A stretch of DNA of 64,000 nt from NCBI GenBank assembly GCA_905234795.1, contig CAJOIQ010000008.1, positions 29,308-93,307 of the forward strand, written 5' to 3'. Source of the DNA: an uncultured Bacteroidales bacterium (lineage in GTDB: Bacteria > Bacteroidota > Bacteroidia > Bacteroidales > UBA932). Positions 2,825 to 35,703 of this stretch are shown piece after piece; position 1 is the first letter of the stretch; every line of letters begins with the position of its first letter. The notes under the pieces were generated by a model that did no database searches, had not been told where the DNA came from, and saw only the letters and a program-made list of their open reading frames with translations. Made by a program: the position numbers and the translations under genes.

Positions 2825-3367
2825 ATGACACACGAAATCATTATATCCGGATTCGGAGGACAAGGTGTCCTCTCCATGGGTAAAATCCTGGCCTACAGCG
2901 GCCTGATGGAAGACAAGGAAGTGACCTGGATGCCTGCCTACGGTCCCGAGCAGCGCGGCGGCACGGCCAATGTGACCGTCATCGTGAGCGACGAACCCGT
3001 GTCGTCCCCCATCCTTTCCTCCTACGACACAGCCATCGTCCTGAACCAGCCTTCCCTGGAGAAATTCGAGAAGAAGGTCAAGAAGGGCGGCACCCTCATC
3101 TATGACGGCTACGGCATCACGGTCCCGCCCACGCGCAAGGACATCAACGTGTACCGTATTGACGCCATGGACAAGGCGGCCGAAATGAACATGATCAAGG
3201 TGTTCAATATGGTGGTGCTGGGCGGCTTGCTCAAGGTGCATCCCATCGTGAGCATCGAGAGCGTGCTCAAGGCCCTGCGCAAAACACTTCCCGAACGGCA
3301 TCACCACCTCATTCCCATGAATGAGGAGGCCATCCGCCTGGGAATGGACATCATCCAGAAGCAATAA
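2825..3367 (+). CDS. 2-oxoacid:ferredoxin oxidoreductase gamma subunit
   Basis: EIIISGFGGQGVLSMGKILAYSG...PAYGPEQRGGTANVTVIVSDEPVSSP motif. Confidence 0.88.
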   Translation: MTHEIIISGFGGQGVLSMGKILAYSGLMEDKEVTWMPAYGPEQRGGTANVTVIVSDEPVSSPILSSYDTAIVLNQPSLEKFEKKVKKGGTLIYDGYGITVPPTRKDINVYRIDAMDKAAEMNMIKVFNMVVLGGLLKVHPIVSIESVLKALRKTLPERHHHLIPMNEEAIRLGMDIIQKQ

Positions 3368-3369
3368 GA

Positions 3370-3400
3370 AGAATGCCAGCCACGCGGCTGGCATTCTTTA
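3370..3400. terminator. Bidirectional intrinsic terminator between OFOR gamma and uvrD
   Basis: GAATGCCAGCC-ACGC-GGCTGGCATTC perfect stem between convergent genes, T-rich flank on the + side. Confidence 0.8.
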
Positions 3401-5800
3401 TATATGACGGAGTTTGGCGAACTTCAGAATCAGGAGTTTCTCCCCGTACTGGTCAAAGGCAATCTTGGCCTTGAGGTCCGGAACCTGACCGTAGATTTCC
3501 AGCACCTTACCGGCACCGAAGCGGTTGTGCTCGATGCGGTCCCCTACCTTGAAAGAGGTCATGGGTTCCGGCACAAAGTTGGGGTCTATCACTGCCGGCT
3601 TCTCCGGTATTACTGTACGTTTCACCGGCTCACTTGCAGGGCCAGAGGAGGGAACAGATTTCCCGTCACTAAAATGAGGGCCGATGTTCCGGGAAATCTG
3701 TCCCCCCCTCCCGGCCATTCGACCGGCACCGGGGAAGGGTGAAAGGTTTGTTTTCCCTTCCCAGGTGACGGAAAAACCGTCAGCTTCCCATGGCTCAAAG
3801 GACTCTTTGCGTAAGGGTTTATCTAGGTACTGGGGGGCGAGTTCGCGGAGGAAGCGGCTGGGGCCGTTGGATTCGTGCTTGCCGTTGCGCATGCGCGTTT
3901 CGGCAAAGCTGAGGGAAACGGCCTTTTTGGCACGGGTGATGGCCACGTAGAACAGACGGCGTTCTTCCTCCAGATCCTGCGGAGTGAGCATCCAGCCGCC
4001 GGAGGGAAACAGATTCTCCTCCATGCCGGCCACGAATACATAGGGGAATTCCAGGCCCTTGGCGGTGTGTACGGTCATCAGGGCCACTTTGTTGTTGGTC
4101 TCGTCATCGGCCACGTCCACGTTGGAGAGCAGGGACACGTTCTCCAGATAGTCGGCCAGGGTGACCGTGGGTTTTTGGTCCACGGCGTCGGGGTCTACAT
4201 CGGCCTCCACGTCCTCCACGTATTCCTTGACGCTGTTCAGCAGTTCCTCCACGTTGGCAAAGCGGGACTGGCCTTCGATGGAGGTATCGGCCTTGTAAAA
4301 GAGGTACAGGCCGCTCTCCTGGGCCAGGGACATGGCTACGTCGTAGGCGTCTCCGTGCACGGCATCCTGCGCGGCCTTTTCCATGAAGGTGCAGAAAGCG
4401 CGGATTTTGCCGATGGCCGCTCCCTTGAGGCCATAGTCCTCCAGATTGGGCAGAGCCGCAGCTTTGAACAGGGAAACCATATTTTGCCTGGCGGCTTCTA
4501 AGAGAGCGTCCATGGAGGTGCCGCCTATACCGCGGGCGGGCTTGTTCACCACGCGCTTGAACGATTCATCGTCATTGAGATTCACCGCAAGCTTGAAATA
4601 GGCCATCATGTCCTTCACTTCCAGCCGTTCGAAGAAGGAATTGCCGGAGAAGATCATGTAGGGAATGTTGCGGCGGCGCAGCTGCTCTTCCAGCGCGCGG
4701 GATTGGGAATTAGTGCGGTACAGGATGGCAAAATCCTCATACTCACACTGTTCCGCGCGCATACGGGTGAGGATGGAAGAGGCTATCTGCATGGCTTCTT
4801 CCTGTTCCGTGAAAGTGCGCACCAGGTGGATCTTCTCCCCTTCCTCCCCCATGGACACGCAGTTCTTGGGGATGCGGCCTTCGTTGTGGGCGATGAGGGC
4901 GTTGGCGGCGTTCACGATGGTGGCCGTACTGCGGTAATTGCGTTCCAGGCGGAAGAGCCGGGCCGTGGGGAAATCCTTCTGAAAATTGAGAATATTCTGG
5001 ATTTGAGCGCCGCGGAAACCGTAAATGGATTGGGAATCGTCTCCCACCACACACAGGTTCTTGTGACCTGCCGCCAGCTTGCGCAGGATGAGGTACTGGG
5101 CCATGTTGGTATCCTGGTACTCATCCACCACGATATGGTCGAATCGGCCGGCGATATCGGCCAGGGCATCCTCCGACTTCTTGAGGAGGAGGTTCATGTA
5201 CAGGAGAATGTCATCAAAGTCCATCACCCCCGACTGCTGGCATTTCTGACAGTACAGCTGGTAGATGCGGTAGATTTCCGGCTTCTTGTGCGCATTGTCG
5301 GCCTCCCGGTATCCGCCGGCGCCGTTCATGTAGGGCGTGGGGGTGACGAGGTCGTTCTTGGCCTTGGAGATGCGGGAAAGCACTTCCTTGGGTTTGTACA
5401 GTTTGTCGTCCAGGTTGAGCTGGGCGATGCAGGCCTTGACGGCGCTCACGGAATCCGTGGTATCGTAGATGGTGAAGGTGGCGGGGAAGCCGATGACCCC
5501 GGCGTAATCCCGCAGGAAGCGGATGAAGACGGAGTGGAAGGTGCCCATCCACAGGCGGCGGGCCTTGCGCTCACCCACCATGAGGGCGATGCGTTCCTTC
5601 ATTTCTCCGGCGGCCTTTTTGGTAAAAGTCAGGGCCAGGATGCGCTCTGGGGGCACACCCTGCTCAATCAAATACGCTATCCGTGAGGTAAGTACACGGG
5701 TTTTGCCGGAACCGGCCCCCGCCACTATTAGCATGGGGCCTTGCGTACATGTTACTGCGGCTGATTGTTCCCCGTTCAGGGACGCCAGGATCTCACTCAT
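3398..5800 (-). CDS. uvrD: UvrD/PcrA-family DNA helicase
   Basis: GPMLIVAGAGSGKTRVLTSRIAYLI, DEYQDTNMAQY, VVGDDSQSIYGFRGA, MTVHTAKGLEFPYVFVAGMEE, EERRLFYVAITRAKK; MSEILASLNGEQ start at 5800 preferred. Confidence 0.95.
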   Translation of the reverse strand: MSEILASLNGEQSAAVTCTQGPMLIVAGAGSGKTRVLTSRIAYLIEQGVPPERILALTFTKKAAGEMKERIALMVGERKARRLWMGTFHSVFIRFLRDYAGVIGFPATFTIYDTTDSVSAVKACIAQLNLDDKLYKPKEVLSRISKAKNDLVTPTPYMNGAGGYREADNAHKKPEIYRIYQLYCQKCQQSGVMDFDDILLYMNLLLKKSEDALADIAGRFDHIVVDEYQDTNMAQYLILRKLAAGHKNLCVVGDDSQSIYGFRGAQIQNILNFQKDFPTARLFRLERNYRSTATIVNAANALIAHNEGRIPKNCVSMGEEGEKIHLVRTFTEQEEAMQIASSILTRMRAEQCEYEDFAILYRTNSQSRALEEQLRRRNIPYMIFSGNSFFERLEVKDMMAYFKLAVNLNDDESFKRVVNKPARGIGGTSMDALLEAARQNMVSLFKAAALPNLEDYGLKGAAIGKIRAFCTFMEKAAQDAVHGDAYDVAMSLAQESGLYLFYKADTSIEGQSRFANVEELLNSVKEYVEDVEADVDPDAVDQKPTVTLADYLENVSLLSNVDVADDETNNKVALMTVHTAKGLEFPYVFVAGMEENLFPSGGWMLTPQDLEEERRLFYVAITRAKKAVSLSFAETRMRNGKHESNGPSRFLRELAPQYLDKPLRKESFEPWEADGFSVTWEGKTNLSPFPGAGRMAGRGGQISRNIGPHFSDGKSVPSSGPASEPVKRTVIPEKPAVIDPNFVPEPMTSFKVGDRIEHNRFGAGKVLEIYGQVPDLKAKIAFDQYGEKLLILKFAKLRHI
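3640..3716. repeat. Intragenic palindromic insertion in the uvrD C-terminal linker
   Basis: Imperfect inverted arms ggccagaggagggaacagatttcccg / cgggaaatctgtccccccctcccggcc around core tcactaaaatgagggccgatgttc, which resembles the loop core of the two rmlD elements. Confidence 0.65.
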
Positions 5801-5842
5801 ATCTACCCTCAAATTTATATGCGAAAATAGCGATTTTTTTCG

Positions 5843-5872
5843 TATCTTCGCCGTGTATTTCGGCAAATACAC
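5843..5872 (+). promoter_or_regulatory. Putative nqr promoter -7 box plus adjacent palindrome
   Basis: TATCTTCG (5843-5850) followed by the perfect hairpin GTGTATTT-CGGC-AAATACAC (5853-5872), upstream of nqrA. Confidence 0.5.
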
Positions 5873-11793: not shown

Positions 11794-11850
11794 AATAGTT
11801 TAAGTTTTTCTCTTGATACCAAATGGGATCAAGAGAAAAACTTAACTATT
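11794..11850. repeat. Palindromic element, copy 1
   Basis: AATAGTTTAAGTTTTTCTCTTGA-taccaaatggga-TCAAGAGAAAAACTTAACTATT; near-identical copy at 15158-15214. Confidence 0.85.
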
Positions 11851-15157: not shown

Positions 15158-15214
15158 AATAGTTAAGTTTCTCTCTTGACACCAAATGGGGTCAAGAGAA
15201 AAACTTAAGTTATT
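15158..15214. repeat. Palindromic element, copy 2
   Basis: AATAGTTAAGTTTCTCTCTTGAC-accaaatggg-GTCAAGAGAAAAACTTAAGTTATT. Confidence 0.85.
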
Positions 15215-34713: not shown

Positions 34714-35703
34714 TTACGGAAGCAGTTCTTCCAGGCACTTTTTGAGGGCGTCACGCCAGTGAGGAATGTTTATTCCCAACTCCCGTTTGATACGGGTTTT
34801 ATCCAGGACGGAATAGGCGGGCCGATGCACCTTGGAGGGGAATTCGTCGCTGCTGCACGGCTGGATGTTGCAGTTTATATGACCCGCATAACCGGCTATG
34901 GCACAAGCAAATTCGTACCACGTGCATTCCCCTTCATCGGTAAAATGGTAGATGTTGGCCGATGGCGTTCCCGCCGGGGAAGGACCCACCTCTTCGGTCG
35001 CGAATTTGATGGCCGATGCTCCCTCAGAGGTGGGGGTCCTTCCCCCGGCTAAAAGGCGCACAATCACATCGGCAAGATCGGCGGCAAAAGTGGGCGTGCC
35101 GCGCTGGTCGTCCACCACCTTGAGCGAGGGCTTTTCCGCAGTGAGGCGAAGCATGGTCTTGACGAAGTTCTTTCCGTAGGGGCTGTACAGCCAGGCCGTA
35201 CGGATGATGATGTGCCGGCAACCGACTCGTTGGATGGCCTGTTCTCCATGCAGTTTTGTAACGGCATACACGCCCTGCGGAGCCGGTTTCTGATCCTCCT
35301 TTATAGGCGAGTTAAGAGGCTCTGCACCAAATACATAGTCTGTTGAAATATGCACCAGCAGGCCGTTCACTTCCTTCATGGCCACCGCCAGATTTTCCAC
35401 AGCCTTGGCATTGAGCAGTTCGGCCAGTTCCGGCTGGTCCTCGGCCCCCTCCACATTGGTATATCCCGCACAGTTCACAATGGTATCTATCCCCTCCTTC
35501 CTCACCATCTCCCGTATAGCCTCCAAGTCCGTGATATCCAACTCGTTAAGATCAGTGAAAACCGCATCTGGCAGTAACGCCCCTTCGGTCGCTGATTTGA
35601 TGGCCGATGCTCCCTCAGGGGCGTCACTACCAGAAGCGTCTGCCCAGATGCTTCTGAGAGACATTCCAAGCTGCCCGTTGGCACCGGTTACCAGGACTTT
35701 CAT
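34714..35703 (-). CDS. rmlD: dTDP-4-dehydrorhamnose reductase with two in-frame repeat insertions
   Basis: MKVLVTGANGQLGMSLR, STDYVFGAEPLNSPIKEDQKPAPQGVYAVTKLHGEQAI; insertions encode EGASAIKSATEGALLP and SEGASAIKFATEEVGPSPAG. Confidence 0.9.
   Translation of the reverse strand: MKVLVTGANGQLGMSLRSIWADASGSDAPEGASAIKSATEGALLPDAVFTDLNELDITDLEAIREMVRKEGIDTIVNCAGYTNVEGAEDQPELAELLNAKAVENLAVAMKEVNGLLVHISTDYVFGAEPLNSPIKEDQKPAPQGVYAVTKLHGEQAIQRVGCRHIIIRTAWLYSPYGKNFVKTMLRLTAEKPSLKVVDDQRGTPTFAADLADVIVRLLAGGRTPTSEGASAIKFATEEVGPSPAGTPSANIYHFTDEGECTWYEFACAIAGYAGHINCNIQPCSSDEFPSKVHRPAYSVLDKTRIKRELGINIPHWRDALKKCLEELLP
34973..35049. repeat. Intragenic palindromic insertion, rmlD copy A
   Basis: Arms gccggggaaggacccacctct / agaggtgggggtccttcccccggc around core tcggtcgcgaatttgatggccgatgctccctc. 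Confidence 0.85.
35567..35634. repeat. Intragenic palindromic insertion, rmlD copy B
   Basis: Arms tctggcagtaacgcccct / aggggcgtcactaccaga around core tcggtcgctgatttgatggccgatgctccctc (edges +/- 1 nt). Confidence 0.85.

Follow-up and report, generated by a model that had tools for sequence, protein, structure and literature searches.

It is mainly in Rickettsia that small palindromic elements within genes are known, and the hairpin family described here is compared below with these and with three further systems. The RPE families (Ogata et al. 2000, 2002, cited in PMC10969869) are, in the summary given there, short palindromic repeats that lie in frame within metabolic genes of unrelated kinds, a genome having many of them. 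Compared by description, the present element resembles them in its in-frame insertion in protein genes, its absence from orthologs and its fusion to host proteins, whereas RPE families are given as units of about 150 bp, conserved along their whole length in a family, and the present element measures about 65-90 nt, has stems that are 0.41-0.43 identical between loci of one species against about 0.80 for the loops, and resides in an uncultured Bacteroidales host. RPEs are furthermore summarised (PMC6649704) as losing their repeat identity over time, while in the present family the loop is the conserved part and the stem varies by compensated changes.

The stems of REPINs show compensatory changes (PMC3116915), and the TnpA-REP and IS200/IS605 transposases recognise, on one strand, the loop or irregularities in the stem (PMC8266576). 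With REPs and REPINs as described in these two papers the element shares the character of an apparently non-autonomous hairpin in many dispersed copies, with compensatory stem changes and single-strand-specific features. It differs in that REPs have conserved stem ends and an adjacent tetranucleotide, whereas here the loop is conserved and no such tag was found, and in that REPs are mostly extragenic, whereas here the copies lie mostly in genes and no RAYT could be assigned to them among the loci compared. Two mitochondrial systems are treated in PMC6649704, and are compared here as far as its passages drawn on describe them. In Nematomorpha, near-perfect inverted repeats occur within translated genes and are gained and lost between species, as in the present family, but those palindromes have both arms in conserved protein sequence with no common loop described, whereas here an added segment carries a common loop. 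The Byp elements of Magnusiomyces, which are mentioned there, are likewise short palindromic inserts within protein genes but are skipped by the ribosome, whereas here the host frames are open through the inserts, and the insert lengths would fit in-frame translation. The element works most like RPEs (in frame, in genes) and REPINs (hairpin, compensatory stems), yet fails defining features of each, and our search of open-licence papers found no description of this hairpin family.

Copies in the window and in related genomes

The window, i.e., the whole stretch of 64,000 nucleotides that was analysed, contains three element copies in total, two in rmlD and one in uvrD:

34714-35703, minus strand: rmlD (dTDP-4-dehydrorhamnose reductase), 329 aa, frame open across both inserts
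34973-35049, plus strand: copy rmlD2, full hairpin; antisense reading SEGASAIKFATEE; empty in sister genomes G172 and G165; net gain 69 nt
34997-35022, plus strand: conserved 26-nt core (loop) of rmlD2, 0 mismatches to the core pattern
35563-35638, plus strand: copy rmlD1, full hairpin; antisense reading PEGASAIKSATEG; empty in sister genomes G028 and G157
35588-35613, plus strand: conserved 26-nt core (loop) of rmlD1, 0 mismatches to the core pattern
35563-35574, plus strand: outer part of one arm of rmlD1, encoding LPDA, which is native, being present in insert-free relatives
3398-5872, minus strand: gene for a uvrD/pcrA-type helicase, 824 aa, host of the third copy, frame open through the insert
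3645-3710, plus strand: uvrD copy, 21-nt arms, core GTCACTAAAATGAGGGCCGATGTTCC; antisense reading RNIGPHFSD

The names rmlD and uvrD, which had been assigned in a preliminary description of this DNA, proved right, with domain matches of the products to RmlD_sub_bind (E=3e-88) and UvrD-helicase (E=1e-86), and solved RmlD relatives align on either side of each insert and skip the inserts themselves. The two rmlD elements with a common core reported in that description are real, as the 32-nt cores at 34994-35025 and 35585-35616 had 0 matches in dinucleotide shuffles of the window, and each arm does pair with its own partner, 34973-34993 with 35026-35049 in rmlD2 and 35563-35584 with 35617-35638 in rmlD1. 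The statement that the arms are unrelated between copies is correct for the outer stems, but it does not extend up to the core, since the two copies have 42 nt in common at 90% and only the outer stem is copy-specific. The third relative in uvrD was also found, with its 21-nt arms surrounding tcactaaaatgagggccgatgttc.

A scan of the window for strong hairpins returned the three copies and a few intergenic or weak hairpins, in comparison to about one in shuffled sequence. A general palindrome-forming process in the genome was ruled out for the window, because its strong coding hairpins are core copies, with the remainder either intergenic or weak. Directly adjoining the uvrD copy is a weaker hairpin that lacks the core (3723-3771) and is possibly the remnant of an older insertion. 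Beside rmlD1, at 35617-35655, there are apparently two diverged tandem versions of the copied arm (GCTTCTGG and GCATCTGGGCAG, gene sense), which the simple hairpin does not include.

The host is a member of an uncultured rumen Bacteroidales genus. When its own genome was searched for the 26-nt core GTCGCNNANNNGATGGCCGATGCTCC with at most three mismatches, as the preliminary description had proposed, 35 matches were obtained in comparison to 0 for the reversed pattern, and a covariance model of loop plus stem, built from 37 copies with 12 stem pairs and the 26-nt core, gave 66 matches at E<=0.01. The description had allowed that the genome might hold no additional copies, or copies whose flanks are self-complementary no more often than chance; many other copies are present, and their pairing far exceeds that of shuffled sequence (see below). 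The same model and threshold were applied to 151 genomes of the genus, with at most 39 candidates scored per genome. Among these candidates there were at least 39 copies in G000, 38 in G157, 37 in G172, 22 in G165, 19 in G101, 10 in G028 and 9 in G164, and a few copies each in ten further genomes, while 134 of the 151 congeners had no match at E<=0.01 among the candidates scored. Several sister species carry about 10 to 40 copies each and most of the genus none; the sister genomes compared are uncultured rumen Bacteroidales MAGs. The exact 26-nt core had no match in a collection of named genomes, in which the own genome is possibly not included, and in 24 further families of the order that were searched there was a single match, which was chance-like.

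Stem covariation and the folded strand

The element is a hairpin with a stem of about 18-24 bp and a loop of about 20-26 nt, in which the pattern GC..A...GATGGCCGATGC is conserved. In the alignment of 37 copies all stem column pairs vary in both of their columns; pairing is kept in 84.9% of the cells in comparison to 52.4% in shuffles, and it falls to 45-50% if the partner column is slid by one. The covariation score, a check already suggested in the preliminary description, is 0.829 in comparison to 0.236 in shuffles, and this covarying pairing supports the selection on structure which had been surmised there. Among 85 copies from several species the loops are species-specific, e.g., GCGAAAAAKATAGCCGATGC in G172 in comparison to GCTAAAATGATGGCCGATGC in the own genome.

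The purine or pyrimidine class is kept at each stem position: pyrimidines make up 93-100% at positions 6-8 of the 5' arm and purines 92-96% at positions 17 and 20, although the identity of the base there is only 0.45-0.75. This pattern, common to the stems, could instead reflect direct sequence or codon constraint. Transitions account for 56% of the stem pair changes in comparison to 33% expected, an excess that would be seen if G-C and A-T pairs interconvert through G.T on the complementary strand. The strand- and transition-biased stem mismatches are likewise as expected from stepwise compensation. The stem in the own L015 gene is identical to that in cysS of G101 at 36 of 36 compared nucleotides, including two mismatches, which indicates that whole hairpins are copied.

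The strand that folds was read from the non-Watson-Crick stem pairs of 85 elements from several species, which are related by ancestry. On the printed strand A.C pairs number 55 in comparison to 13 G.T pairs, the others are mostly C.T, and purine-purine pairs are nearly absent; on the complementary strand the mismatches therefore read G.T and G.A, whichever way the host gene runs. G.T and G.A mismatches are better tolerated than A.C and C.T. The bias has the same direction in both gene orientations, with 23 A.C and 4 G.T in sense copies and 15 A.C and 4 G.T in antisense copies. Collapsed by stem cluster, A.C against G.T was 36:9 (p=7e-5) and pyrimidine-pyrimidine against purine-purine was 30:3 (p=1e-6); with position 14 left out the collapsed count was 30:9 (p=0.001), and under the loosest stem clustering the mismatch bias was weaker (p=0.009). 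The complementary strand is also the more stable fold in 75 of the 85 elements with RNA parameters and in 70 of the 85 with DNA parameters, and random window segments had no such difference between strands. Selection on the host mRNA is unlikely, since the mismatch bias follows the orientation of the element and not that of the gene; selection thus sees a folded single strand tied to the element, and the structure under selection lies on one strand, the complement of the printed strand.

Empty sites, filled sites and RAYT genes

The copies are open in frame within host genes in either orientation, and nearly all of the own copies examined lie in open frames; one copy at L283 is apparently intergenic. 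The host genes include those for UvrD, MiaA, Fmt, CysS and ATP synthase gamma, and also RmlD. Orthologs were located in five sister genomes with a concatenated protein query and then aligned, the species compared having about 60-87% protein identity in the segments concerned. The miaA site is empty in G028 (AKAL-R-AEILS), and in G157, where the hairpin has 25 pairs and measures 64 nt, the gene has gained 63 nt; rmlD2 amounts to 69 nt for a 70-nt hairpin over the empty relatives, and the L005 gene has 78 nt more than its empty relatives, four of which were found. The site in rsmE is also empty in four relatives, and two A2M sites are empty in G101. Because the gain at clean empty sites matches the whole hairpin, both arms appear to arrive together. 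The empty-site comparison envisaged in the preliminary description thus yielded gains close to a whole hairpin in miaA and rmlD2, and the mobility that it had offered as one explanation is supported, in comparisons between species, by the empty and filled orthologous sites together with the identical stem found in different genes of two species. No target-site duplication of the kind that marks MITEs was seen where miaA is empty, this being one site, with the other relatives too diverged for a general comparison, and no target-site rule was found among the insertions compared.

Same-site copies were also compared. At the rmlD1 linker G101 has a sense copy and the own genome an antisense one, so that this linker was hit independently in the two genomes, and some host linkers contain tandem arrays. 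Stems at orthologous sites resemble each other scarcely more than unrelated stems do (0.47/0.43 in comparison to 0.41/0.38), which makes separate insertion, or complete turnover of the stem, the likely history of most same-site copies. By the same values, locus-inherited stems with converted loops were rejected.

In 73 named MAGs the fmt linker mostly has a short empty form (25-residue stretch, ...TELVKDGQATQLKVF), and the non-empty ones carry hairpins with at least three loop types. In L188-L191 and L193 a second loop type, GTCGCTTCGCGACCCTGTNCGGGCAAATG, read as SLRDPVRANAPE, occurs in the same kind of stem. In L196, L198, L213, L218, L219, L223-L226, L230 and others, the linker holds REP-like repeats read as CHSERSEESP, or as VMPGxDRxSP or VIPGSDRESP, which in these other species would make it a general landing site for small palindromic DNA. 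In L207 only one arm (GGAAGGGGATACCCTTTCCGGAACG) is found where L191 carries a full hairpin, which is probably an in-frame deletion of the core and one arm (57 nt).

RAYT (Y1) genes are common in the element-carrying genomes, and the RAYT loci fetched are mostly flanked by their own, different REP hairpins. No autonomous partner linked to the element was found among 20 RAYT loci and the orthologs of one of them, and relatives of one RAYT occur in many genomes that lack the element. A pairing of the element with these RAYTs is not favored, since most of the 20 loci carry their own REPs and the presence of the gene does not track the element. At L283 (G000:C24:16800-20800) an apparently frameshifted RAYT with its own REPs is bracketed by element copies, which lie outside the REPs at 1255-1303 and 3206-3271 and both contain the segment CTGAAAACCCTTCCGCTTTTCTTCTGCCTGG, and the RAYT at L299 has two element copies nearby; the 18 other RAYT loci fetched have none. 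Beside the hairpin we found no conserved tetranucleotide (GTAG-like), and on either side no strongly conserved positions beyond stem position 23. The window itself holds two 18-bp inverted repeats at 11800-11845 and 15163-15208 (TTAAGTTTTTCTCTTGAT..ATCAAGAGAAAAACTTAA), and hairpins nearly identical to them lie on either side of a Y1/RAYT gene in this genome (L281, 968-1005 and 2736-2771), so that the window repeats look like REPs of the L281 RAYT.

Origin of the copies

Whole hairpins are present or absent at host-gene linkers, with the frame kept, in both orientations and with covarying stems. From these sequence comparisons we consider it probable that the copies belong to a small mobile hairpin of a REP- or RPE-like, non-autonomous kind, which moves as single-stranded DNA in its folded form, with an enzyme of the Y1/HUH type as the candidate. 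The whole element would be one hairpin, its conserved loop closed by the stem, and the mobile form would be the folded GGAGCATCGGCCATC DNA strand. A putative enzyme would read the loop sequence and, in some copies, two tandem G.A internal mismatches, and would otherwise need only a paired stem, so that compensatory changes, with G.T as the intermediate, could gradually alter the stem sequence, and the loop would stay unchanged in any one species. The likeliest enzyme would be a Y1/HUH-type transposase (RAYT/TnpA-REP class), a kind that is abundant in these genomes. Copies would survive at places that tolerate the 20-26 or so residues they encode, i.e., in linkers, and the same linkers would thus be filled repeatedly in different species.

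The preliminary description had also offered a templating mechanism, in which one arm is copied as the inverse of the other; this is not supported in general, as whole hairpins are extra at miaA and rmlD2, although it possibly applies to the outer arm of rmlD1. There, the outer 12 bp or so (12 nt of one arm) correspond to LPDA, and the insert-free genes of G157 and G028 read LLPDA and, closely, LLPSA, which suggests that this arm may have grown by copying local host sequence, or else that the match is due to chance. This native LPDA is what would favor templating at insertion, with the core inserted into a gene and the flanking target sequence copied inversely into one arm, but target-templated arms as a general rule are ruled out by the whole-hairpin gains at the clean empty sites of miaA, rmlD2 and the L005 gene, and identical stems in two different genes also argue against it, so that we give this origin next to no credence. 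Templating from arm to arm, in which template switching (quasipalindrome correction) at replication copies every mutation from one arm to the other, would keep stems perfect without selection and would need no transposition enzyme for their variability. It agrees with the near-perfect Watson-Crick stems and their few mismatches, and with the rmlD1 outer arm as the inverse of native host sequence, and such a mechanism has been proposed for the perfect coding palindromes of Nematomorpha mitochondria (PMC6649704). In its simple form, however, it predicts neither the one-strand G.T/G.A bias nor the kept purine/pyrimidine class, and it leaves the whole-hairpin gain at empty sites and the conserved loop unexplained, and we regard it as rather unlikely.

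A folded RNA would also fit, as the complementary strand tolerates wobbles of the G.U type as well as G.A pairs and the fold difference is larger with RNA than with DNA parameters; it could be a mobile complementary-strand transcript of a master copy, retrotransposed by means of a reverse transcriptase, or else an RNA structure with a regulatory role. Host mRNA is an unlikely target, however, as the 37 sense copies carry the "wrong" strand and have the same bias as the 24 antisense copies, and no Rfam family is matched in the window (Rfam 15, 0 matches above the gathering score); an RNA form appears quite improbable to us. Host-useful linker cassettes, kept for a benefit of their peptide (VAxxMADAP or GASAIxxAT) or of the linker length and spread by recombination, would account for the single reading frame of 35 of the 37 sense copies and for the tandem arrays, but both orientations and several frames give unrelated peptides, insert-free orthologs are common, and DNA pairing is conserved while the peptides vary, all of which makes this origin very unlikely. 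Within the preferred reading of a mobile DNA hairpin, a bolder version would be a mobile element of a new class, sequence-specific only in a loop of about 20 nt and recognised in its stem by shape alone, which moves as one defined single strand with an enzyme of a new kind and continually inserts into coding sequence, with species-specific loops; this we put forward tentatively, as possible and still doubtful.

As a natural dataset the family is large, one genome having about 66 copies and several related species contributing further ones; the empty sites are clean and the folded strand is fixed, and both this strand and the recognised features may be read through the mutation patterns. For annotation, the element explains where segments inserted into the linkers of rumen Bacteroidales proteins come from. 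Mobile DNA repeatedly adds linkers of about 20 residues to RmlD and to ordinary essential proteins (UvrD, MiaA, Fmt, CysS, ATP synthase gamma) and, if the bolder version above is true, several species of one genus have protein linkers rewritten by hairpins with species-specific loops.
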